The translations under genes were made by a program, and so were the position numbers. 64,000 nucleotides of DNA from Paracoccus zhejiangensis (GTDB lineage Bacteria; Pseudomonadota; Alphaproteobacteria; Rhodobacterales; Rhodobacteraceae): the NCBI RefSeq assembly GCF_002847445.1, contig NZ_CP025433.1, positions 86,391-150,390 on the forward strand, given 5' to 3'. The notes below the pieces were generated by a model that saw only the letters and a list, made by a program, of their open reading frames with translations, was not told where the DNA came from and did no database searches. Below are positions 22,376-48,306 of the stretch, piece after piece. The first letter of the stretch is position 1; each line of letters starts with the position of its first letter.

Positions 22376-23382
22376 CGATATCCGGCCTCGGCCCGCATGG
22401 CGAACGCGCCGCCCCGCCCGAACGGGTCAGCCTGCTGCCCGACGACCGCACCGCCGCCAAGGCGGCCGGATGGCGCGTTGCCGTGGTCCTGCACACCTTG
22501 GAAAGCGACTGGGCCAAGCAGCAACTTGCCGGCATGATGGGTATCTTCGGCGATTGCGGCGCCGCGGTGATCGATGTCGTGGATTGCGCCTTTTCCCCCG
22601 ACATGCAGGTGGCCGAACTTGACCGGCTGATCTCGCAACGCCCCGATGCGATCATCTCCCTTCCCGTGGCGAATGAACAGGTCGCCGCCGCGCACCGCCG
22701 GGTGTCCGAGGCGGGAATAAAGCTGGTCCTGCTGGACAACGCGCCCACCGGCCTGTTGCCGGGCAAGGACTACACGGCGCTGGTGTCTTCGGACAACTTC
22801 GGTCTGGGCAAGATCGCGGCCGCCGGACTTTCTCCCCGCATCCCCGACGGGGCGAAAGTCGGCGTCCTCGGCTTCGCCGCCGATTTCTTCGCTACGAACG
22901 AACGCGAGATCGCCTTCACCAAATGGCTTCAGGTGAACCGCCCCGACATCACACCGCGCATCCACCGCTTCGCGCGGATCGAGGACTCAGCCGCAGCCGC
23001 GGATGACCTTCTGTCGGCAAACCCCGATCTGGCCGGGCTATTCGTCGTTTGGGACACGCCTGCCCTTGCCGCAGCCACCCGCCTTGCAGAACGCGGCGCA
23101 ACGATGTCCATGGCAACCGTGGACCTCGGAGAGGCCGCAGCCATCGCCCTCGCAACGGGCAATTCCTTCTGCTGCATCGCAGCCCAGCAGCCTTTCCTCC
23201 AAGGGATCACAGCCGCACAGACCGTGATCCTGTGCCTTCTCGGTCGCCCCGTTCCCGCCTGGATCGCCCTACCCGGCATTGGCGTCACACGGGACAACGT
23301 GGTCGAAAGTTTCCAGACGATCTGGCGGCAACCGGCCCCGCGCGAAGTGCTCCGCGTGCTGGGCCTGTCGCGCGGCAAATGA
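22372..23382 (+). CDS. Sugar-binding-protein-like protein without signal peptide
   Basis: 336 residues with a complete type I periplasmic-binding-protein fold: VAVVLHTLESDWAKQQLAGM, ISQRPDAIISLPVANEQVAAA, LVLLDNAPTGLLPGKDYTALVSSDNFGLGKIAA and LFVVWDTPALAAA. Segment order matches the exported binding protein at 18783. The N-terminus (MTISGLGPHGERAAPPERV) has no signal peptide, lipobox or membrane segment, and no helix-turn-helix. It overlaps the ROK gene by 4 bp. A cytosolic ligand sensor or co-regulator for the ROK protein is the simplest inference; loss of export from a duplicated gene is the alternative. Confidence 0.85.
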   Translation: MTISGLGPHGERAAPPERVSLLPDDRTAAKAAGWRVAVVLHTLESDWAKQQLAGMMGIFGDCGAAVIDVVDCAFSPDMQVAELDRLISQRPDAIISLPVANEQVAAAHRRVSEAGIKLVLLDNAPTGLLPGKDYTALVSSDNFGLGKIAAAGLSPRIPDGAKVGVLGFAADFFATNEREIAFTKWLQVNRPDITPRIHRFARIEDSAAAADDLLSANPDLAGLFVVWDTPALAAATRLAERGATMSMATVDLGEAAAIALATGNSFCCIAAQQPFLQGITAAQTVILCLLGRPVPAWIALPGIGVTRDNVVESFQTIWRQPAPREVLRVLGLSRGK

Positions 23383-23616
23383 AGGCCGGCATGGCAGCGA
23401 TGCGACAGGCTCACCGGCGGATTTGAATCCGCCAAAGTTCCATTACGACTGTCCATCGACATATCGCCGCGACCGTCCGCTTTGGGCCGAGGGTGTGTGG
23501 AAACTCATGGCCTGGGTTGGCCACGGGCGATCATACGGTCCGGTGCGCGCCATCGGCGTATCCCTCCGGCGGGGACCGTCTGACGGGATTTCGCCGCCGG
23601 TGATAAGTCCGACCTT
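23383..23616. other. Short gap before IS66 remnant
   Basis: The left part follows the binding-protein-like gene. The right part probably includes the left end of the IS66-type element, but no clear terminal inverted repeat could be paired with a right end because that end is missing. Confidence 0.4.
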
Positions 23617-24031
23617 ATGGCCGACCATAAGTTCAGACCTGAGATCGAAGTTCTTTCTGCCGCGGATGCGCCGCGCCGGCGGCACTGGCGCGATGCGGAC
23701 AAGATCCGGATCGTGGAGGAGAGCTTCGTGGGGCCTCGTCAGGTGGCGGCGACGGGCCCGGCGGCATGGTGTGTCACGCTCTCTTCTGACGATATGGCGC
23801 CGGCAATATCGCAACGGCGAGTTTGGTGATGAGACAGCGTCGGCGTTCATACCGTTGACGATCTCGCCCGGGAGGCTCGCGCCAGTGACTGCGAAGGCGC
23901 CAGTGGCGCGGCGTGACACCCCTAATGTGCAGCTCGAGATCGTGCTGAGGAACGGGCGCCGACTTCTTGTCCCCTCCACGGTGGACCCGGAAGCGTTGGC
24001 CCGGCTTCTTCCGGTGCTGGAGGGTCGATGA
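23617..24031 (+). pseudogene. IS66-family orfA (tnpA), frameshifted
   Basis: The first part (MADHKFRPEIEVLSAADAPRRR, then IRIVEESFVGPRQVAAT) is in one frame. The rest (ARRHGVSRSLLTIWRRQYRNGE, ending ALARLLPVLEGR) is in the next frame. One extra G in ACGGGCCCGG near 23755 causes the shift. The helix-turn-helix typical of IS66 orfA lies across the break. Its stop overlaps the orfB start by 4 bp, the normal IS66 order. Confidence 0.88.
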
Positions 24032-24190
24032 TCGCCTTCCCGGCGGGGGTGCGCGTGTGGATCGCGGGTGGGGTGACGGACATGCGGCGCGGCATGAACA
24101 CGCTGGCGCTGACAGTTCAGCAGGGACTCGGGCGCGATCCGCATGCGGGCGAGATCTTCTGCTTTCGCGGGCGCAAGGGCGACCTGGTCA
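24028..24190 (+). pseudogene. IS66-family orfB (tnpB), 3' truncated
   Basis: It codes for MIAFPAGVRVWIAGGVTDMRRGMN and continues to FCFRGRKGDLV, the usual N-terminal half of IS66 TnpB (about 115 residues when complete). Similarity ends near 24187, where the sequence turns into the 3' end of an IS1182-type gene on the other strand. The transposase gene tnpC is absent. Confidence 0.88.
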
Positions 24191-25256
24191 GCTTGTTGCC
24201 TGCCGGGCAACGATAGACGTCGCGTTCCGGATCGTAGAGAAAGTCCGCCTTGACGAACATGCCTTTGCCTTCGTTGCCCGAGGTGGCGGGCCGCGGCACG
24301 GTCGTGGTGATGCCCACCTCATGGCAGGCAAGGATCTCGGTGCCGCTGAAGTAGCCCTTGTCGACATTGGCGTGCAGGTCGTCGCGGCCGAGAGCCTCCT
24401 TGGCCGCCACCGCCATCGGGCTCAGTTGATCGCGGTCAAAACCCTGGTTCGTGACGTCATGCGTGACGATGATGTGGGTCTCGGTATCGACGACATTCTG
24501 GACGTTGTAGCCGACGAGCCCGCTGTGCCGGGCGCTGGTCGCCATGGTGCGGGCATCTGGATCAGTCAGGGATATCTGGCCGTCCGGCGCGTCGGCCAGG
24601 GCCTTGTCCATCGCCTTCAGCCGCGCGACCTCCTGCCGGATGCGGCCGTAGCGGCGGGCAAGATGGGCGACCTTCTCAGTGCGCGCCTCGCCTTCCTCCT
24701 GCCCGTCGATGCGGACCATCTCGTTGATGTAGCGTTCGACATCGGCCTCGAGATGCGCCAGGCGGCTGGCGATCTTGCCCTTGGTGAAGTTGCGGTCGCG
24801 GTTGTTCACCGCCTTGAACTTGCTGCCATCGATCGCGACGCAATCGCCCTTCAGCGTGCCGATCCGGCGGCAGAGTTCCACGAACTGCGCGCAGGTCTTG
24901 CCGATGGCCGGGCCATTGTCGCGCCGGAAGTCGGCGATAGTCTTGTGGTCCGGCACAAGCCGACCGGTCAGCCACATCGCCTCGACATTGCGCCCCGCCT
25001 CGCGCTCCAGCCGTCGGCTGGAAGGGATCCGGTTCAAATAGCCGTATATGAACAGCTTGAGCAGGACCGCAGGGTGATATCCGGGCCGCCCCGTCCGTGC
25101 CGGGGCCGAACGCACGAAGCCAAAGCCTGGTAGATCAAGCTCATCGACAAAGAGATCAACGACGCGAACGAGGTGATCTTCGCCGATCCAGTCCTCCAAC
25201 CGCTCCGGGAAAAGGGCGGTCTGGCCACGCCCAATACCTTCGATGAAACCCGCCAT
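24190..25256 (-). pseudogene. IS1182-family transposase, C-terminus lost
   Basis: About 356 codons from MAGFIEGIGRGQTALFPERL. DDE parts include KGDCVAIDGSKFKAV (first Asp) and DDLHANVDKGYFSGTEI (second Asp region). The last family-like residues are YRCPAGNKLTR near 24190. After that the frame simply reads the opposite strand of the IS66 orfB fragment. Roughly the last 100 residues, including the C-terminal Glu region, are missing, so it should be inactive. The two IS remnants truncate each other at this junction. Confidence 0.85.
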
Positions 25257-25363
25257 GCCGAACCCCTGCTGACCTGCAGAAGTCTACCACAGCAGGCAGT
25301 GTCCACACAGCCTCGGCCGTTCAGATATGACTAGGCGGCGACGATCACCGTGAGCAGTCTTCG

Positions 25364-27667
25364 CTACTGCGATGCCCTTCCGGCACGCCCTCGGACGGCT
25401 TCACTGACCTTTGCACCTAGTTCTTTCGCTGCGCCAGTCGTGGAGGGCTTCGCGGCAAGGCAGCGGGCAAGCCTGTGTCGAGCGCGTAAAACCTCGGGAG
25501 CGACCATGTCGGCGGCCGAGGCCGTCACAAGAAGCTCCATTGCCGCCCGCAGAGACGATGGCGATAGCATCCGGTCACGTGCCTCGATGGCGTTGATCAG
25601 GTCGTCTGCCATGCGGGCTTCGAGCCAGGTAAACAGCTCACGCGGCAGCGCGCTCCCGGCCGTGCGGAGCCGTTCCAGGCGGAGCGTCAGTGCCGTGATC
25701 TGACGGTCCGCAGCCGTCAGCAAGGCTGTGTGCAGGTCGCGCGCCGCTTCCAAGACCTCTGCGCGCCATTCACTCCTGATCCCCCGATCCAGCAGATCAT
25801 GCGCGCGTCCCGTGCCGAGCAACGCCGCGACCCCAGCAACCGGCCCAAGGATCAGCGCCCCCGCGGGGCCGAGGACCACAAGGCCCAGGATCGCGCCCCC
25901 GGCCTGTCCCGCGCCGGCCAGACCACCGCGGACGGACAGGTCGATCACCAGCCATGCCGGCAGATCCTCGACCGGGATCTTTCCTGTCCATGCTTTATGT
26001 GCCGCGCGTGCTCCGCCGATGATCGTCGCATAGAGAGGCACAGGCACATCCGCCAATCCGGCGGCAGCCTCAAGTGATCGGTCGACGAGGCTCTGGACAT
26101 GATCGAGATCGAAACCGCTCGCGGTCGTCACCATTGGCGCCCAGGGCTCATCCAGAACTTGGGCCTGTGCGGCCAAAGCGTTATCGGCGATGACCGGAAT
26201 GTCAGGGTATTTCGCGAAATGGTCATGCAACAACGAGATGCTGGTGCCGCATTTGACTTGGACCGGAACGCCATCGACGATCAAGTCGTAGCCCGGCATC
26301 GTGGAACTCTCGGGCAGGATCACATCGTGGCCGTCTTCGATCAGTTGCGCCATGACCAGTTGCTCGGCGCTGTAACCCCGCAATGCAACCCGGGCACCCA
26401 GAGAGGCGAAATTCGCGATATGAACCGAAAGGTCCAGCGGCGTGTCGAACTCGGACACGCGCGAGAAATCGGCAGCGGCCAGAACGGAGGGATCGACGGC
26501 CGCTGCGTGATAAAGCATGTCGCCTGCGGTCAGACCTGCAACGAGAGCCGTGTTCTGACGGTCGGTGCTTTGCTCGACGGCGATCCGCGCACCCCAGAGA
26601 CCTGGCGCCGCATCTGACACGGAAGGAATGTCCGTCGACAGGGTGGCGATGATTGTCCCGGCCCGCATCCGAACAGCCTTGCGCTGCTTGCCGTCGAGAT
26701 GGCGCAGCTCTGTGTCGGGCATCCGGTAGAGCCCTCGAAACGCGTTCAAGAGCGTAGCCATCCCGTTGACCGCACCCTGACCGCGCACGGCCAAGAGGAT
26801 CGCGACCCTTGCGGCGGCAATCTCAAGAGCGGCGCTGGCCCGGCTGCTGATCGCCCAATAGCCAAGGGTCGCGCTGCCGGCGATGACGGTCACGGGATTG
26901 ATCATCACGAACAGAAGCGATGTGAGCGTCGGCCCCGCCACGAAAGGAATGACGGATGAGAGGTGGGCCGCCATGAGATAAGGCGCAAAGCCCGCCGACC
27001 CGATCGCGGTGGCCAATGCGGCCCATCCGCCGCCGGCAAGAACCGCAGTAGAGATGGCCTGCTGGCCCTTGCGGATAGCTTCGGCAACCTCGGGATCCAG
27101 CTCTCCGCGGTCGCTCGCTGCCGCAAGGCCCTTCATCATGACCATCATCTCATGCGCGACGACATCCGGAAAGGTCACCGCCGCCCGCGCGCGCCTGCCG
27201 ACGCCCGTCGCGCGGCGCAGCAGCTGCCGTCCCGCCCGACCCGTGATCGACAGGTCGGCATCCGCCCTCTCTTGCTGCGCATTGGCGACGGCAGGGGCGA
27301 GGATCTCGGAGGCCCGGACGGCGATGGCGGCGGCCTCCTCCTCCATGCTGCGGGTTGAAAGAGGATAGAGGTCCGGCAGCCCAAGACTCTGCTTCACGCC
27401 GAGCCACAGCCTTGATCGCAGCGCATCCGTCGAGAGGGGCCCGCTCATAAGATCCTTGGCGAAAGCGGTCACACGATCGGCACCCTGCTTGTCGTCCGAG
27501 ACAAGCTTTCGCCAGGCGGCCTCGCCCACGGCGCCTGCAATTTTTGCAAGACGTGCGGCGTTCAGCAGGGCCAAGAGGCCACAGATTTCCTGGCGGGACG
27601 CATCGCCCAGACCGGCAGCGATGTGGCGGGGAGACGGAGCGGCCTGTTGGGAGATCATATTCGGCAT
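25364..27667 (-). CDS. Large membrane protein with PD-(D/E)xK-like nuclease core
   Basis: 767 residues, not recognised as a named family. Residues 1-200 are helical and soluble. Residues about 206-272 are strongly hydrophobic (AVLAGGGWAALATAIGSAGF; VTVIAGSATLGYWAI), enough for two or three membrane helices. Residues about 430-490 contain AEQLVMAQLIEDGHDV, then GYDLIVDGVPVQVKCG, with Asp near 461 and QVK at 470-472. That is the helix-Glu, Asp, Gln-x-Lys pattern of Mrr/Holliday-resolvase-like nucleases. Residues about 578-617 form a second Gly/Ala-rich hydrophobic stretch. A helical tail follows. The ATG at 27667 follows AGGTAGGCTTCTAAG. It stands alone between IS1182 and IS110 elements, a setting common for defence genes. 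Function is inferred only. Confidence 0.75.
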   Translation of the reverse strand: MPNMISQQAAPSPRHIAAGLGDASRQEICGLLALLNAARLAKIAGAVGEAAWRKLVSDDKQGADRVTAFAKDLMSGPLSTDALRSRLWLGVKQSLGLPDLYPLSTRSMEEEAAAIAVRASEILAPAVANAQQERADADLSITGRAGRQLLRRATGVGRRARAAVTFPDVVAHEMMVMMKGLAAASDRGELDPEVAEAIRKGQQAISTAVLAGGGWAALATAIGSAGFAPYLMAAHLSSVIPFVAGPTLTSLLFVMINPVTVIAGSATLGYWAISSRASAALEIAAARVAILLAVRGQGAVNGMATLLNAFRGLYRMPDTELRHLDGKQRKAVRMRAGTIIATLSTDIPSVSDAAPGLWGARIAVEQSTDRQNTALVAGLTAGDMLYHAAAVDPSVLAAADFSRVSEFDTPLDLSVHIANFASLGARVALRGYSAEQLVMAQLIEDGHDVILPESSTMPGYDLIVDGVPVQVKCGTSISLLHDHFAKYPDIPVIADNALAAQAQVLDEPWAPMVTTASGFDLDHVQSLVDRSLEAAAGLADVPVPLYATIIGGARAAHKAWTGKIPVEDLPAWLVIDLSVRGGLAGAGQAGGAILGLVVLGPAGALILGPVAGVAALLGTGRAHDLLDRGIRSEWRAEVLEAARDLHTALLTAADRQITALTLRLERLRTAGSALPRELFTWLEARMADDLINAIEARDRMLSPSSLRAAMELLVTASAADMVAPEVLRARHRLARCLAAKPSTTGAAKELGAKVSEAVRGRAGRASQ

Positions 27668-27927
27668 CTTAGAAGCCTACCTACAGGGTCGGCGGCAGGG
27701 AACCCATGCTATGTGACGATGTCTCCTGATTTGACCGAAGCTTCGCTTGGCGCGCATCAGATATTCACCTGTCAGGGTCACTGCACTGAGCATGAGCGGC
27801 CGGTTTAGGGAAGCTAAGCTCTACGGTCGCTGCTCCCCTGAGCGGCAGCTAATGGGATGTGCCGGCTGCTTCCCCCACCGTTGGGTTATCCTGAACCGGG
27901 ATCATCCGCGCCAAAGGAGAAGCAGCC
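27668..27927. other. Non-coding leader of the IS110-type element
   Basis: About 260 bp between the divergent membrane-nuclease gene and the transposase gene. IS110-family elements carry a structured guide (bridge) RNA in their non-coding end. GGCAGCTAATGGGATGTGCCGGCTGC near 27845 can fold on itself. This is a location for such an RNA, not proof. Confidence 0.4.
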
Positions 27928-28995
27928 ATGTGTGCGAAGAAGACAGGAAGCATTGAAGACCTGGCAGTTGTCGGCATCGACATCGGCAAGGATACCTTCC
28001 ACCTGGTCGGTTTCGACCGCTCGGGTCAGGTGGTTTTGCGCAAGCAGATCAAGCGGCTCGCACTGGACGCAACGTTCGAGACGTTGCCACGATGCGTGGT
28101 CGGGATGGAGGCCTGCCTCAGCGCCCATTTCGTCAGCCGAAGGCTGCGCGACTTGGGGTTCGATCCGCGGATCATTCCGGCGATCTACGTGAAGCCGTTC
28201 AACAAAGGCCAAAAGAACGACTACAACGATGCGGAGGCGATCGCCGAAGCCTCCCTGCGGCCGAACCTTCGGACGGTGACGGAGAAGAGCCAGGACCAGC
28301 TCGACCTTCAGGCCCTGCACCGGGTTCGGTCTCGGCTCGTCTCGCGACGTACGGCAACGATCAACCAGATCCGGGCTTTCCTGATCGAACAGGGGATCGC
28401 GGTCCGCAGCGGGCTCCGCGCCTTGCGGAATTCCTTCGAGACGATCCTCGAACAGCGGCGCGACGAGATCTCTGCCCGGATGCGGAATATCCTGATCGGG
28501 CTTTACGGCGACTGGCTCTGGCTCGATGACCGGATTGCCGCCGTATCAACCGAGATCGAGGAGATCAGCCGTACGGAAGAGAACTGCGCGAACATCATGT
28601 CGATCCCGGGTATCGGACCGATGATTTCGACGGCCATGGTCGCGGCGGTCGGTCGGGGCGAGGTCTTCGACCGGGGCCGCGACTTTGCCGCCTGGGTTGG
28701 GCTGGTGCCCCGACAGTTCAGCACGGGCGGGCGTACGATCCTCGGACGGATCACCAAGCGGGGAAGCCGATACCTGCGCATGCTCTTCGTGCAGGCCGCC
28801 AAGGTGATCATGATGCGCCCCCACCGTTGGCAGGCGTTCAGCTTCGGAGCCTGGCTCGAACGCGCCGCATCCCGAATGCCCAGGAACAAGGCTGCGGTTG
28901 CCCTGGCCAACAAGCTGGCCCGCACGGCGTGGAGCATCCTGCGTCACGGCACGCGGTTCGACACCCCCAGAGATCCGACCATGGAAGCAATCTGA
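27928..28995 (+). CDS. IS110-family transposase (DEDD recombinase), intact
   Basis: 355 residues. The N-terminal RuvC-like DEDD domain has VVGIDIGKDTFHLVGFD (Asp), VVGMEACLSAHF (Glu), and NDYNDAEAIAEA (Asp pair). The C-terminal Tnp_20 domain has IMSIPGIGPMISTAMVAAVG and FAAWVGLVPRQFSTGG with the conserved Ser region. AAAGGAGAAGCAGCC before the ATG is a strong ribosome binding site. No frameshift or stop is present, so it is probably active. IS110 elements generate no terminal inverted repeats, so exact ends cannot be set here. Confidence 0.95.
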   Translation: MCAKKTGSIEDLAVVGIDIGKDTFHLVGFDRSGQVVLRKQIKRLALDATFETLPRCVVGMEACLSAHFVSRRLRDLGFDPRIIPAIYVKPFNKGQKNDYNDAEAIAEASLRPNLRTVTEKSQDQLDLQALHRVRSRLVSRRTATINQIRAFLIEQGIAVRSGLRALRNSFETILEQRRDEISARMRNILIGLYGDWLWLDDRIAAVSTEIEEISRTEENCANIMSIPGIGPMISTAMVAAVGRGEVFDRGRDFAAWVGLVPRQFSTGGRTILGRITKRGSRYLRMLFVQAAKVIMMRPHRWQAFSFGAWLERAASRMPRNKAAVALANKLARTAWSILRHGTRFDTPRDPTMEAI

Positions 28996-36653: not shown

Positions 36654-37868
36654 TCACGCCCCCTCTATCCCCTCGAACAGCCCCGGCGACATGTCCTCCC
36701 AGAAGGCGCTGATCCGGCCTGCGTTCAGCGGCGAGACCCAGCCATGGCGGGTGAAATCGTCGCGCATCCGCGCCTCGGTGAGCTGGCTCAGGAACAGCCG
36801 CCGGTCGGCATCGCGCTGCGTCGGCGAGCGCGATTTCACCAGTTCGAGGATGCGCCGCAGCCGCGCGGCCTGCGCGCTGACCGACGCCGTGGCCGGGGCA
36901 GCGATGGCGGCACCACCCTGCCCCGCCGCATCCTCCTCGCTGCCGAAGTTCCCGTCCAGCGCCGCGCTCAGGTAGCCGACCATGCTTTTGACGTTCTTGC
37001 GGGTCTCGACGTAATCGAGCTTCGCCTCGACCTCGTCCTCGCCATGCACCCCCAGCCATTGCCGCGCCAGCCGGTCACTGACCCCCAGTGCGCGCAGGCG
37101 GGCATAGACCGGCCCGTGCCGCATCCCCTCGCCATCGTCGATATCGAGGATCGCCAGCTGCGGGTTCTCGCGGATGCGAAAGCGGATCTCGCTGACCACC
37201 CTGCCCTGCTTGCGCGTCTCGGCGGTCAGGATGATGTTGCTGGTGCGGTTCACTTCGTCCACCGCCGGCTTGATGATCTTGGCGTTCAGATGCTTGAAGC
37301 TCTCGTAATAGGCCGAGCCCTCGACCCCCATCAGCCGTCGGAACAGCTCCAGCGGCCACCAGCCGGTCGAGCCGGTGCGGACAAAGCGATAGCAGTTTTC
37401 ATAAAGCGCCAGCGCATGACCCGAGGTGAAGCGCCGCTGGATATTCAGGTTGATCAGCGCAAAGACCTTGGGGTCATGCATCTTCTCCGCCAGCGCCGGG
37501 GAATAGGCATATTCGCAGACCCCGCCCTTCAGCTTGGCATAGCTCAGAAGGCTCGACACGCCCCATTCCTGCTGGCCCTTCTCGTCCAGCATGTCCCATT
37601 CGGCCACCGTCTCAGCCAGCCCGCGCAGCGACTGTTTCAGCGTCTCCATGTCGTTCGAATTGTAACCGATCATCAGGCACAGCGTCCGCGCATCGATCTG
37701 GTGCCGGGTCCGGCTGATCAGCGTGTCATAGGCGTTCAGCAGCAGCACATTCGACAGCTTGCGCTGCAGCAGCGTCAGCTTGCCCGACACGTGGATCGCG
37801 GCCACATGTTTCTTCACCGCCCCCCGGCGCAGGGCGCCGGTCAGCTGGTCGCGGGGGATCTCGTCCAT
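36654..37868 (-). CDS. Plasmid replication initiator, Rep_3-type
   Basis: 404 residues. The N-terminal winged-helix half has VSGKLTLLQRKLSNVLLLNAY, LCLMIGYNSNDMETLKQSLRGL and GGVCEYAYSP, followed by LINLNIQRRFTSGHALALYENC. These are landmarks of iteron-binding Rep proteins of the Rep_3 superfamily as found on Rhodobacteraceae plasmids. The second winged helix follows at about residues 180-260 (STGWWPLELFRRLMGV). The C-terminal 130 residues are helical. The gene diverges from parA, with iterons between them. It should bind the iterons to start replication and probably repress itself. Confidence 0.9.
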   Translation of the reverse strand: MDEIPRDQLTGALRRGAVKKHVAAIHVSGKLTLLQRKLSNVLLLNAYDTLISRTRHQIDARTLCLMIGYNSNDMETLKQSLRGLAETVAEWDMLDEKGQQEWGVSSLLSYAKLKGGVCEYAYSPALAEKMHDPKVFALINLNIQRRFTSGHALALYENCYRFVRTGSTGWWPLELFRRLMGVEGSAYYESFKHLNAKIIKPAVDEVNRTSNIILTAETRKQGRVVSEIRFRIRENPQLAILDIDDGEGMRHGPVYARLRALGVSDRLARQWLGVHGEDEVEAKLDYVETRKNVKSMVGYLSAALDGNFGSEEDAAGQGGAAIAAPATASVSAQAARLRRILELVKSRSPTQRDADRRLFLSQLTEARMRDDFTRHGWVSPLNAGRISAFWEDMSPGLFEGIEGA

Positions 37869-37900
37869 GGTCCTGCTCGTTCGTCTTTTTTGCTATTATG

Positions 37901-38179
37901 CCCGAAAAGGTACCCTCGGTCTACAAATCTTCAGGCACCCATCTGCAGGGAAGCTCGGTCCCGGAAACGGGTTCCTCTGGACGTTGCGCGCAACACAGGT
38001 ACCCTTTTACGGGATCAGACCCCCTGCCCTATCGCTCATTTCCCCCGCATTTGCCCGCTTTCGCACCGATCCCGCAGACGAATACCCGAATAACCGCGAA
38101 TCGGTGCCGCCGGTCCTGCAGACGGGTACCCCTCGTCCCGGAATCGGGTCCCCTTCAACCCGGAATCGGGTGCCTGATC
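37901..38179. other. Candidate oriV: tandem 22 bp iterons
   Basis: Five 17 bp units repeat exactly every 22 bp, starting at 38070, 38092, 38114, 38136 and 38158. Examples are TCCTGCAGACGGGTACC and ACCCGGAATCGGGTGCC. Further related copies are at 37901 (CCCGAAAAGGTACC), 37959 (TCCCGGAAACGGGTTCC) and, inverted, at 37998 (GGTACCCTTTTACGGGA). The last three lie near the rep start, where they could serve autoregulation. A markedly AT-rich stretch follows at 38188-38280, suitable as the unwinding region. Confidence 0.88.
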
Positions 38180-38283
38180 GCACCGAACATCTTGTAATCT
38201 AAGAAGAACATGGTCCGTAAAGACTCTAAAGCAGATAAACAATCTACAAGCTTTATGCTGCTGTTTTCCTTGATTTCAGAAGG

Positions 38284-38298
38284 GTTTCGCGGCGAAAC
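38284..38298. other. parS-like site 1
   Basis: GTTTCGCGGCGAAAC, a perfect 7-1-7 inverted repeat about 85 bp upstream of the parA start. Two almost identical sites lie in and after parB. It resembles alphaproteobacterial parS (GTTTCACGTGAAAC). Confidence 0.8.
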
Positions 38299-38382
38299 CT
38301 GCCATCGGGGATTCACAGACCCCGGTTCATGTGCGATAGTTTTGCCAAAACACATATCGAAGCAGCACATCGCGAAAGTAGC

Positions 38383-39804
38383 ATGATGTCAGGCAAGGAC
38401 ACTCTCCCGCCCTATTTCAACATCGATCCGGCCAAGGCAGCCAAGCGTCTGTCCGAGCCTATCGACACCGCCCGATTCGCGAAAGCCGCCGCCTTCGCCG
38501 CGCGGGGGCGCGAGGATCTGGCCAAGCGCGGCTATGCCCCCGACGGTCGCAAGCGCCTGCGCCGCTTCTCGACCTGGGAGGTCTGCCAGTACCTGATCCC
38601 GGTCGCCCCCGCGCATTTCCGCCGGGTGCTGCGCAAGTCCCCCGATCTGCCGCAGGGCACCGGCGAGGGCAATTCGAAATGGTTCACCCTCGAGGAGGTC
38701 TTGCGCCTCAGGGACCATTTCGCCGCCGAGGGCGCGGCGGGCCGCGAATACCGCCCCTGGCGCCCCGAGGGCCTGCCCGCGAAAACCATCGCGGTGGCGA
38801 ATTTCAAGGGCGGCGTCGGCAAGACCTCGACCGCCGCGCATCTGGCCATGTCGGCGGCGCTCGACGGCTACAAGGTGCTGGTCGTCGATCTGGACAGCCA
38901 GGGCAGCATGACCTCGATCATGGGCGGACGGGTGCCCGATGAATGGTCCACCGCCTTCCCGCTGCTGGCCAAGGATTACGCCCTCGCCCTGCAGGACGAG
39001 AACCGGGTCCGCGCCGCCGCCGGTCAAAGCCCCCTGCCCTTCGACGAGACCCTGACCGAGGCGCTCAAGCTCAGCGCCCGCGACGTGATCCAGCCGACCC
39101 ATTGGCCGAACATCGATCTTCTGGGCGCGCAGCTGAACCTCTACTGGGCCGAGTTCCAGGTACCGGTCTGGCGCATGGGGTTGCGCGGCTGGCCGCTCTG
39201 GGATGCGCTTGGCAACGCGCTCCACAACGACCGCATCGTTAACGATTACGACATCATCATCCTCGATACTCCCCCGGCGCTTGGCTATCTGACCATCAAT
39301 GCGCTGGCGGCGGCCGATATCCTGCTAGTGCCGCTTGGGGCCAGCTTCCTGGAATTCGACTCGACGGGACGGTTCTTCGACATGCTCTATTCCACCTTCG
39401 CCAGCGTCGAGGATGGCGAGAACGCCGCCCGTCGCCGCGACGGCTTGCCGGAGATGCGCTTCGAATGGGACGCCGTCCGCGCGCTGATCACCCGCTTCGA
39501 TGCCGGGCAGCAGACCGATCTGGCCAATGTCATCCAGGCCTATTTCGGCGATTTCATGACCACCTACCGGCAGGAAACCACCGCCATGGTCGGCCAGGCC
39601 GGCGAGCAGGTGAACGGCATCTACGAGGCCGATTACCGCGAGTTCAACCGCGACACCTATGTGCGCGGCCGCGAGACCTTCGATCGCACCTGGGCCGAGG
39701 TGAAGGAGCTGATCCTCGGCGCGTGGTGGCGGGATCTGCAACTTGAAAAAGCCGAACTGAACGGCAAGGAGGATGAGGCAGATGGCCAAGCGCAGGCGTC
39801 TTGA
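38383..39804 (+). CDS. parA: ParA / RepA-type partition ATPase
   Basis: 473 residues from the ATG at 38383; the first ATG at 38329 would add 18 residues and has no better ribosome binding site. Residues 1-130 form an N-terminal DNA-binding region (LRRFSTWEVCQYLIPVAPAHFRRVLRK, GEGNSKWFTLEEVLRLRDHF). The deviant Walker A FKGGVGKTSTAAHLA is at about residue 141, with VVDLDSQGSM (A') and IILDTPPALGYLTINAL (Walker B). It positions the plasmid with ParB and parS. It overlaps parB by 23 bp. Confidence 0.95.
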   Translation: MMSGKDTLPPYFNIDPAKAAKRLSEPIDTARFAKAAAFAARGREDLAKRGYAPDGRKRLRRFSTWEVCQYLIPVAPAHFRRVLRKSPDLPQGTGEGNSKWFTLEEVLRLRDHFAAEGAAGREYRPWRPEGLPAKTIAVANFKGGVGKTSTAAHLAMSAALDGYKVLVVDLDSQGSMTSIMGGRVPDEWSTAFPLLAKDYALALQDENRVRAAAGQSPLPFDETLTEALKLSARDVIQPTHWPNIDLLGAQLNLYWAEFQVPVWRMGLRGWPLWDALGNALHNDRIVNDYDIIILDTPPALGYLTINALAAADILLVPLGASFLEFDSTGRFFDMLYSTFASVEDGENAARRRDGLPEMRFEWDAVRALITRFDAGQQTDLANVIQAYFGDFMTTYRQETTAMVGQAGEQVNGIYEADYREFNRDTYVRGRETFDRTWAEVKELILGAWWRDLQLEKAELNGKEDEADGQAQAS

Positions 39805-40891
39805 GACCCCGAGCAATGCGGATATGGACCGCATAGAGGAACAGTTTCGCAGCGAAACCTCCGGCCGGCTGACGCCGCTTCGGGGCATCGCGCCGATCGC
39901 CCAGGTCGCCGGCGACAGCGCCGCCGCCGCACCGACCGAAACCGGCGAGGCGCGGGCCGAACGCGCAAAGCTCGAGGCCGATGCGGCGCGACTCAAGGCG
40001 GCGCAGAGTCAGGGCCTGTTGATGGTCGAGATCCCGCTCGACCAGATCGACGAGGGCGCGATGATCCGCGACCGCATGGTGATGAGCGAGGAGGCGATCC
40101 AGGAGCTGCGCCAGTCCATCGCCGCGCATGGGCTGCGTCTGCCGATCGAGGTGTTTGAACTCGAGAAGCCGAACGGGCAGGGCGCGCGCTACGGCCTTCT
40201 CTCCGGCTATCGCCGTTTCCTCGCCACGCGCGGGTTGCTGGAGCTGACCGAGGCCGACAAGTACCAGACCATCCGGGCGCTGATCCGTCCGCGCGAGGCC
40301 AGCGGCGGCGCTTTCGTCTCGATGATCGAGGAGAACGAGGTCCGCGAGGAGCTGAGCCATTTCGAGCGTGGCCGCATCGCGGTCATCGCCGCCAACCAAG
40401 GCGCCTTTGCCAATACTGAGGATGCGGTGGACAAGCTGTTCGCCACCGGCTCCAAGGCCAAGCGGTCCAAGATCCGCTCCTTCGCGGTGATCTTCGAGGA
40501 ACTGGGCGATATGCTGGCCTTCCCCGAGGGCCTGACGGAGCGCCGTGGCTTGCAACTGGCCGGGGCGCTGCGGCGCGGGGCCGAGGGCAAGCTGCGCGAG
40601 GCGCTGTCACAGGTGGCACCCGTCGATGCCGACGAGGAATGGCTGGTCATCGAGCCGATCATCCGCGCGCTGGAACAGGGACCGCAGGAGACCAAACGCG
40701 GCGGGCGGCCCAAGACCTCGCCCTTGGGCTATGGCTGGATCGACGACAAGACCGTGCGCACCTCCAGCGGCATCACCATCCGCCGCGCCAGCGACAGCAA
40801 GGGCCAGATCCTGCGCTTCGAGGGGGTGAAGGCAACGCCCGACATGATCGATCACCTGATGTTCGAGATCCAGCGGCTGCTGGACGGCTGA
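39782..40891 (+). CDS. parB: ParB / RepB-type partition protein
   Basis: 369 residues. The ParB nuclease-like CTPase domain has VEIPLDQIDEGAMIRDRM, IQELRQSIAAHGLRLPIEV and GLLSGYRRFLATRGL. ALIRPREASGGAFVSMIEEN leads to the central helix-turn-helix. The C-terminal DUF-type tail is longer than in chromosomal ParB (KTVRTSSGITIRRAS). The ATG at 39782 is preceded by AAGGAGGATGAGGCAG. One parS-like site lies in its own 5' coding part (39844) and another just after the stop (40897). Confidence 0.95.
   Translation: MAKRRRLETPSNADMDRIEEQFRSETSGRLTPLRGIAPIAQVAGDSAAAAPTETGEARAERAKLEADAARLKAAQSQGLLMVEIPLDQIDEGAMIRDRMVMSEEAIQELRQSIAAHGLRLPIEVFELEKPNGQGARYGLLSGYRRFLATRGLLELTEADKYQTIRALIRPREASGGAFVSMIEENEVREELSHFERGRIAVIAANQGAFANTEDAVDKLFATGSKAKRSKIRSFAVIFEELGDMLAFPEGLTERRGLQLAGALRRGAEGKLREALSQVAPVDADEEWLVIEPIIRALEQGPQETKRGGRPKTSPLGYGWIDDKTVRTSSGITIRRASDSKGQILRFEGVKATPDMIDHLMFEIQRLLDG
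39844..39858. other. parS-like site 2, inside parB
   Basis: GTTTCGCAGCGAAAC, a 7-1-7 inverted repeat, encodes part of the N-terminus of ParB (QFRSETS region). A centromere inside the coding sequence constrains both functions. Confidence 0.8.
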
Positions 40892-47175: not shown

Positions 47176-48306
47176 ATGGCTTGGAACTGGGCGCTGCCTG
47201 ATTGGCCGGATTTCCGGTATGACACCTCCGCTCTGGAGCCGTTCGAGCAGAAGTTTCTTCTGTCATCTGGGGAAATCCTCGGCGCGGTCCATCATGTCCG
47301 TAAGCCGGAACGCGAGCAATTCCGCATCGAACTGCTCAGCGAGGAAGCGATGCAGACGAGCGCGATCGAGGGTGAAATCCTCGACCGGCTTAGTGTCCAG
47401 TCTTCGCTGCGTCGCCATCTGGGGCTCGATCCGGATAGCTACCCTGCCAAACCGCGCGAACAGGGTGTGGCGGAAATGATGGTGGACGTCTATTCCAGCT
47501 TCGCGGACACGCTGACTCATGAGACGCTGTACCGCTGGCATCGGATGCTCCTGTCCCATGACCATCGGTTGGAAACCATCGGGGCCTACCGACACCACGC
47601 CGAGGCGATGCAAATCGTATCCGGTCGCCTCGACAGGCCGACGATCCATTTCGAAGCGCCTCCCTCAGCGCGGGTCATGCCCGAGATGGAGCAATACGCG
47701 GACTGGTTCAACAAGACCGGGCCCAGGGGAGCAGAACCGCTTCCAGCCCTGACCCGCGCAGGACTAAGCCACCTCTATTTTGAAAGCATTCATCCATTCG
47801 AAGACGGTAACGGCCGCCTCGGACGCGCCCTTGCGGAAAAGTCACTGGCGCAGAACATCGGCCAACCGACCCTCATCTCGCTCGCCTTCACGATCGAAAA
47901 GGAGCGCAAGGCTTACTACGACCAGCTCGAGCAGCATCAAAAAACGCTCCAGGTGACCGATTGGCTCGTCTGGTTCGCGGAAGTTGTCTTGAAGGCCCAA
48001 AAGGTCACACTCGACCGCGTGGGCTTCTTCATCAACAAAGCGCACTTCTACGATCAGCACAGAGACCACTTGAACACACGCCAGGCCAAGGCCATCGCTC
48101 GAATGTTTCGGGAAGGTCCCGGAGGGTTCAAAGGCGGTCTCAGCGCAGAGAACTATCTCAAGATCACGGGAACGTCACGCGCAACCGCAACCCGCGATCT
48201 GCAGGATCTGGTCGAGAAAGGTGCGCTCAGTCGAACTGGGGAACGACGTCATACGCGGTACTGGTTGAATATGGACCACAAACCGGAAACTGACACATTC
48301 GCTTGA
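47176..48306 (+). CDS. Fic-family AMPylase-like protein with C-terminal winged helix
   Basis: 376 residues. DUF4172-type N-terminus (WNWALPDWPDFRYD). An inhibitory helix of the intramolecular class, TSAIEGE at residues 61-67, with the Glu that blocks ATP. The active loop HPFEDGNGRLGRAL starts at residue 206 and is canonical (HPFx[D/E]GNGR). The C-terminus has a winged-helix segment, GLSAENYLKITGTSRATATRDLQDLVEKGALSRTG. It would transfer AMP or another nucleotide to target proteins, with activity kept low by its own helix. No separate antitoxin gene lies beside it. Confidence 0.93.
   Translation: MAWNWALPDWPDFRYDTSALEPFEQKFLLSSGEILGAVHHVRKPEREQFRIELLSEEAMQTSAIEGEILDRLSVQSSLRRHLGLDPDSYPAKPREQGVAEMMVDVYSSFADTLTHETLYRWHRMLLSHDHRLETIGAYRHHAEAMQIVSGRLDRPTIHFEAPPSARVMPEMEQYADWFNKTGPRGAEPLPALTRAGLSHLYFESIHPFEDGNGRLGRALAEKSLAQNIGQPTLISLAFTIEKERKAYYDQLEQHQKTLQVTDWLVWFAEVVLKAQKVTLDRVGFFINKAHFYDQHRDHLNTRQAKAIARMFREGPGGFKGGLSAENYLKITGTSRATATRDLQDLVEKGALSRTGERRHTRYWLNMDHKPETDTFA

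Follow-up and report, generated by a model that had tools for sequence, protein, structure and literature searches.

A Rhodobacterales protein with a PD-(D/E)XK nuclease core between hydrophobic blocks: a probable single-gene defence against foreign DNA

The gene considered here lies on the minus strand of positions 25364..27667 in a 64,000-nucleotide stretch of Paracoccus zhejiangensis DNA (the window; contig NZ_CP025433.1). It encodes a 767-residue protein in which a PD-(D/E)XK nuclease core sits between two conserved hydrophobic blocks, and it probably acts as a membrane-anchored defence nuclease that works alone and directly on foreign phage or plasmid DNA. An undescribed single-gene defence is probable because relatives in several genomes lie near anti-virus genes. 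A first-pass annotation had suggested a role in phage or plasmid defence, which is now supported by gene context and by homology to the PADLOC family PDC-M72B, the activity itself being predicted.

Gene, nuclease core and hydrophobic blocks

The minus strand of the gene is open throughout, and the plus strand of the same stretch is interrupted by stops. Across five same-length copies (the window and loci L002, L024, L025 and L026), dN/dS ranges from 0.148 to 0.238 in all ten pairwise comparisons, and because it is low in every pair, the reading frame is considered a gene under purifying selection. Together with the homologues, this establishes the annotated 767-residue frame as real. A search of 5.8 billion proteins returned 134 homologues at E<=1e-3 (120 listed, with identity down to 37%), and a profile search for the family returned 105, Ancylobacter and Cohaesibacter included; both counts are lower bounds, since only the 8000 best candidates were scored in either search. 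Homologues carrying a genus name belong nearly always to Rhodobacterales. Named entries are mostly "hypothetical"; the annotations also include a "PDDEXK-like family protein" and a "Restriction endonuclease", once each.

In the domain model, residues ~425-530 form a PD-(D/E)XK nuclease domain, for which metal-dependent cleavage of nucleic acid is predicted. The model has the alpha-beta-beta-beta-alpha-beta core fold of the superfamily, and PD-(D/E)XK enzymes rank first among its Foldseek matches, none of which is individually significant by E-value. The acidic residues and the (D/E/Q)xK motif of the superfamily are conserved: E435 occurs in all 139 listed homologues, D461 in 137, Q470 in 138 and K472 in 137, with gaps and a single K-to-A change accounting for the rest. 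The nuclease-like core that had been proposed from a Glu, an Asp near residue 461 and Gln-x-Lys at 470-472 is therefore borne out, with the Asp and Gln-x-Lys retained by the homologues rather than lost. The domain model was relied on because the full-length model gave no Foldseek match below E 1.5, its top rows being helical membrane proteins such as CydDC (prob 0.06). Fold-search rows for residues 631-747, which are helical bundles, were taken as a common arrangement only.

No Pfam family exceeds its cut-off for the window protein, the best being PDDEXK_5 over residues 430-474 (13.8 against the 26.1 bits needed), which is matched at E<=0.5 by ten of 45 family members. Searches of NCBIfam and PHROGs gave no match, and PDB sequence searches gave nothing significant. 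In translated searches of record sets that may omit the window's own genome, phage records gave no match and plasmid records a single weak one, in Shinella. A transporter reading was rejected, as no transporter family occurs among the Pfam or NCBIfam matches and transport-named matches stay at chance level (a solute-binding protein at E 0.61, AmtB at E>=3.3, and transporter chains at E>=1.5 with the full-length model).

The best structural match of the domain model is a CdiA-CT nuclease toxin domain, which would suit a secreted or contact-delivered antibacterial nuclease toxin whose hydrophobic blocks serve translocation. Such a toxin is nevertheless very improbable: the nuclease is central and not C-terminal, Pfam reveals no delivery domain, the stretch shared with other loci holds no immunity gene, and two-gene relatives carry the membrane-type part and the nuclease as separate genes.

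The two Gly/Ala-rich membrane stretches of the first-pass annotation agree with charge counts and hydropathy. Residues 206-272 include no charged residue among 67, with 8 Gly and 14 Ala, and residues 578-617 include one among 40, with 11 Gly and 9 Ala. Kyte-Doolittle peaks over 19 residues reach 1.88 for block 1 and 2.17 for block 2 (alignment means 1.99 and 1.96), with lesser peaks at 28-48, 275-297 and 532-550. Conservation extends to single positions: W215, G226 and G245 of block 1 are retained in 137, 135 and 137 of the 139 homologues, and G591 and G600 of block 2 likewise in 135-137. Profile matches from the class and family samples that are limited to approximately columns 550-630 (for example in genomes G604, G540, G745, G280 and G285) were set aside as Gly-rich resemblance.

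Single-gene setting, distribution and decay

When 1500 bp on either side of the gene were compared, similarity between the window and loci L002, L024, L025, L027 and L028 extended from at most 203 bp upstream to at most 65 bp downstream. Because only the gene and these short flanks are common to the five other loci, the window gene stands alone, in support of the earlier description of an orphan without an operon partner. L026 shares 46 bp upstream with the window, L021 and L022 share parts of the gene only, and L002 has an extra, separate flank match located on the IS1182-type gene. L027 (7648-9804) and L028 (11313-13467) have three further upstream ORFs (99, 161 and ~140 aa) in common, unlike other copies. 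In the shared upstream region, all six aligned loci retain a CTGAT...ATCAG pair (27760-27756 and 27730-27726), while an inverted repeat resembling GGG-TT-CCC (~27705-27697) is retained with small changes; these repeats, within 27697-27760, are possible control elements.

The neighbouring genes are transposase ORFs at 108 bp and 261 bp from the nuclease gene (Table 1). Pfam matches around the gene fit the setting first proposed, with broken IS66 and IS1182 elements, typed by reading, and an intact IS110. An IS110-type gene is present in L022 and L025 as well as in the window, which qualifies the single-gene picture, as do the ORFs common to L027 and L028. The window contig measures 150,390 bp and is regarded as a plasmid-like replicon because it carries a Rep3-type replication protein beside divergent ParA and ParB genes (36654-40891). 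At 47176-48306, ~19.5 kb from the nuclease gene, lies a Fic protein with DUF4172, whose best PADLOC match is SoFic (E 8.4e-41).

Table 1. Coordinates of the gene, its parts and flanking features in the window, and of two related loci
Feature	Coordinates	Strand	Basis or remark
Gene for the 767-aa membrane/nuclease protein	25364..27667	-	ORF, homologues, dN/dS
Hydrophobic block 1, residues 206-272, uncharged	26852..27052	-	hydropathy, conservation
PD-(D/E)XK nuclease core, residues ~425-530	26078..26395	-	domain model, profile comparison
E435 codon, first-helix catalytic-type Glu	26363..26365	-	conservation
D461 codon	26285..26287	-	conservation
Q470-V471-K472 codons	26252..26260	-	conservation
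Hydrophobic glycine-zipper-like block 2, residues 578-617	25817..25936	-	hydropathy, conservation
Conserved upstream region common to other loci, putative control region	27668..27870	-	
Short conserved downstream flank, end of shared stretch	25315..25363	-	
Weak HTH_Tnp_1 transposase match	23279..24031	+	IS66-type fragment by reading
Transposase, DUF772 only, no catalytic domain detected	24117..25256	-	IS1182-type by reading, probably truncated
IS110-type transposase	27928..28995	+	both Pfam domains
PDC-M72A ankyrin-type + small nuclease PDC-M72B, PADLOC's own PDC-M72 layout	L091 6711-10504		then NERD+UvrD
PDC-M72A + PDC-M72B arrangement	L092 6721-8512		proteins by reading only

The 767-aa family occurs sporadically, with several broken copies. 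The window's genome has no family member besides the window copy, and the gene is present in the same-genus genome G326 and in a Paracoccus haematequi record. In the genus sample, ten of 125 genomes match, and five of these have long single frames, that of G326 being cut short at 741 aa next to an IS66-type gene; among the others, G363 holds three pieces, G335 and G370 fragments, and G322 and G408 the two-gene type described below. Family samples gave five of 295 genomes by single-sequence search and 18 of 394 by profile search, the latter comprising six long frames, one broken copy (G279), five small nucleases and six short Gly-rich matches. The class sample gave eight of 385 genomes, six of them with short weak matches. 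A search of the phylum sample with the PDC-M72B family model matched five of 299 genomes, the window's included, and none of 14 control genomes. The family is found on megabase contigs (for example G342:C1) as well as on the window's 150-kb replicon. Additionally, a viral contig (L064, the one confirmed among 64 candidate stretches) carries a full-length relative in the vicinity of replication-initiation and antiterminator genes.

Related nuclease modules and neighbouring defence genes

The nuclease core of the family is homologous to a module found elsewhere as a small protein. PDC-M72B matches residues 424-527 of the window protein (hmmscan, E 1.5e-4), and alignment of the family profile (A1) with a profile built from nine small nucleases (A7) by hhalign gives 97.7% probability and E 2.5e-12 over residues 422-546 (115 columns). 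Both groups have the pattern PG-x-D, DG, VQ-x-K, H and YPDI, which is incomplete in some members. The E, D, Q and K positions are invariant in all nine small nucleases and in all 120 listed proteins that match the nuclease half of a fused Yoonia protein.

The partners of this module vary. In L031, L032, L037, L067, L069, L070 and L071, the small nuclease (242-274 aa) lies downstream of a Gly/Ala-rich hydrophobic protein (216-300 aa), and both such partners that were scanned match PADLOC PDC-M09A. Fusions of the two parts occur on Yoonia plasmid pBS5-3-1 and in L093 (594 aa); the Yoonia nuclease half has 393 matching proteins, and 98 of the 120 listed measure 500-549 residues. In L091, from another class of the same phylum, the nuclease (PDC-M72B, E 2.6e-107) instead lies downstream of an ankyrin-type protein (PDC-M72A, E 1.6e-179) and upstream of a NERD+UvrD protein. 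One nuclease module is thus joined to different partners, either a Gly-rich protein, separate or fused, or an ankyrin protein. The Gly-rich partner also gives a weak match to the dynamin-type LeoBC (E 8e-4), a match that may reflect Gly/Ala composition. L068 was not counted as a fusion, because no partner protein was matched by the first part of its seemingly fused ORF.

Several two-gene pairs have settings of their own. In two genera, the pair (L032 8739-10351; L069 9554-11166) lies among phage structural genes, as judged by reading, on the strand opposite to its neighbours, in the manner of prophage cargo. In L067 (9638-11013) it falls within an apparent cell-division/cell-wall (mur-fts) cluster, recognised by reading only, and in L037 (5448-8726), a Sulfitobacter plasmid of 17 kb that was typed as conjugative, it stands beside a DUF262 protein.

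These relatives, and the decay of the family, bear on an alternative in which the protein is an abortive-infection effector: the membrane part would sense phage-induced membrane change or permeabilise the membrane, and the nuclease would destroy the nucleic acid of host and phage alike, killing the infected cell. Its large uncharged Gly-rich blocks could form pores, the related nuclease has varied partners (ankyrin or Gly-rich membrane-type protein), and broken copies recur, as with costly genes. This role seems unlikely, however, as the stretch in common with the window has no antitoxin or immunity partner and cell death is unnecessary for an anchored nuclease that acts directly.

Gene context argues for defence. 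Across 13 loci of the 767-aa family (L002, L021-L028, L033 and L064-L066), neighbour proteins with 100 aa or more numbered 161, and 140 of them were scanned with PADLOC. The 140 neighbours matched 215 PADLOC models at 1e-10, against 94 for 140 control proteins, figures that are counts and not a significance test. The 25 neighbour models shown include Cas1 and Cas3 (two proteins each), a CBASS cyclase (two), RmrA (three) and capP (three). The control took 140 of the 193 proteins in 12 other regions, and the 25 models shown for it are chiefly parts of type I restriction systems and mad3 (five proteins).

Because the bulk scan does not assign models to proteins, genes were confirmed singly. This revealed cas1 at 2.1 kb from the family gene in L022, casA at 3.3 kb from the broken copy in L033, CdnG at 5.3 kb and a CapV-type patatin at 6.5 kb in L024, ShosA at 2.4 kb in L023, HEC-05 at 7.4 kb and Orf5/HEC-06 at 0.4 kb from the broken copy in L028, and PDC-M26A at 3.9 kb in L021. 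Known or candidate defence genes (CRISPR-Cas, CBASS, Shosta and others) are thus confirmed within 8 kb in six of the 13 loci. For the small or fused nuclease, 12 loci were examined, with the neighbours to be scanned chosen by eye; a MkoA-like gene lies at 178 bp (L031), HamB at 938 bp (L070) and TmtA at 113 bp (L071), and in L093 (2505-8500) a CBASS cyclase with an E1-E2 pair is found 1.2 kb away from the fused protein. Ten neighbour proteins scanned singly with PADLOC gave three clear matches, three weak partial ones and four without a match.

Two points weigh against a defence role. The control is not clean, as all 12 of its regions lie on contigs with a family member and L082-L085 are within ~11-60 kb of it, and the PADLOC scan with single-gene confirmation yielded no confirmed defence gene in seven of the 13 loci, although the unmapped RmrA and capP matches may fall in these seven. 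The second point, along with the location of the window copy on a Rep3/ParAB replicon, would fit a housekeeping membrane nuclease for DNA repair or replication, or a function in plasmid maintenance or exclusion, lying near defence genes by chance. We consider this quite improbable given the sporadic presence of the gene (five of 295 in one family sample and ten of 125 in the genus, half of the latter broken, fragmentary or of the two-gene type), its repeated breakage, its occurrence on megabase contigs as well as the 150-kb replicon, and its defence-gene neighbours.

Proposed mode of action and comparison with known systems

The window protein joins a nuclease and membrane-type stretches in one polypeptide, and the shared stretch holds no partner or immunity gene, so a direct-acting defence is the function we favour. 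In this proposal, the two hydrophobic blocks would tether the protein to the inner membrane, and the PD-(D/E)XK domain that separates them would face the cytoplasm. The nuclease would cleave incoming foreign DNA, rather than RNA; its target would be plasmid DNA, or phage DNA at the time of injection or shortly thereafter. Self would be told from non-self, and the chromosome spared, through anchoring and/or autoinhibition.

Neither the PD-(D/E)XK fold nor the concept of a defence nuclease bound to the membrane is new, but this architecture is undescribed in the literature searched. That literature, which leaves out preprints and most subscription journals, has no description of the 767-aa family, PDC-M72, PDC-M72B or PDC-M09. 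If the proposal is true, it offers a function for a whole uncharacterised Rhodobacterales family and for the nuclease module behind PADLOC's PDC-M72.

The closest relatives differ in layout. PDC-M72 has a homologous PD-(D/E)XK module whose E, D and QxK residues agree with those of the window protein, the homology being limited to ~115 columns. Its ankyrin partner M72A is absent next to the window gene, where the adjoining genes are transposases and the stretch common to other loci is a single gene, and the window nuclease is embedded in 767 aa with two hydrophobic blocks. The two-gene or fused PDC-M09A-like and M72B-like form, mostly from Rhodobacterales, has a membrane-type part ahead of the same nuclease module, an order that the window protein shares. 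It measures 216-300 plus 242-274 aa, or ~524-594 aa when fused, and a comparison of its Gly-rich partner with the window membrane parts detected no homology, so the likeness is an analogy of layout that does not imply descent.

PD-(D/E)XK enzymes with the QxK variant, such as I-Ssp6803I (2ost), Hjc, XisH and PDDEXK_5, resemble the window protein in core fold and E/D/QxK pattern. The sequence similarity stays under the Pfam cut-off given above, and we know of no membrane blocks in these enzymes.

SNIPE (PD-lambda-1) is a nuclease encoded by one gene and bound to the membrane, and it cleaves phage DNA while this is being injected; loss of its membrane segment makes it toxic, with cutting of the host's own DNA (PMC13190303). 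Like SNIPE, the window protein is a predicted single-gene nuclease with a putative membrane anchor and no operon partner, and anchoring, which keeps SNIPE off host DNA, may do the same for the window protein. SNIPE has one N-terminal transmembrane segment, DUF4041 and GIY-YIG, whereas the window protein has two large hydrophobic blocks flanking PD-(D/E)XK. At E<=0.5, 45 family members together match 18 Pfam families, which include neither GIY-YIG nor DUF4041, and the window protein is not a SNIPE because it has neither domain. Its first ~70 residues, where a SNIPE-like membrane segment would lie, hold a weaker peak at 28-48 (1.51; alignment mean 1.35), the main blocks being at 206-272 and 578-617.

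Membrane-bound nucleases that separate self from foreign DNA by place and not by sequence have been described only recently, with SNIPE. The protein studied here, if it acts as proposed, would be a second, unrelated architecture with another nuclease fold, and the strategy would have arisen more than once. A more far-reaching version can be put forward only tentatively: a new single-gene class of membrane-embedded interceptor, in which two conserved membrane hairpins flank a PD-(D/E)XK nuclease that cleaves phage or conjugated DNA in transit through the inner membrane, and which may have evolved independently of SNIPE from a module elsewhere wired to ankyrin or glycine-zipper partners. Zorya and Kiwa are likewise membrane-placed defences acting on injected phage DNA (PMC12904381). 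They differ from the window protein in having several genes, separate membrane sensors and other proteins, and Kiwa binds DNA without cutting it. By analogy, the window protein is best read as working like SNIPE or Zorya and Kiwa while belonging to none of them.
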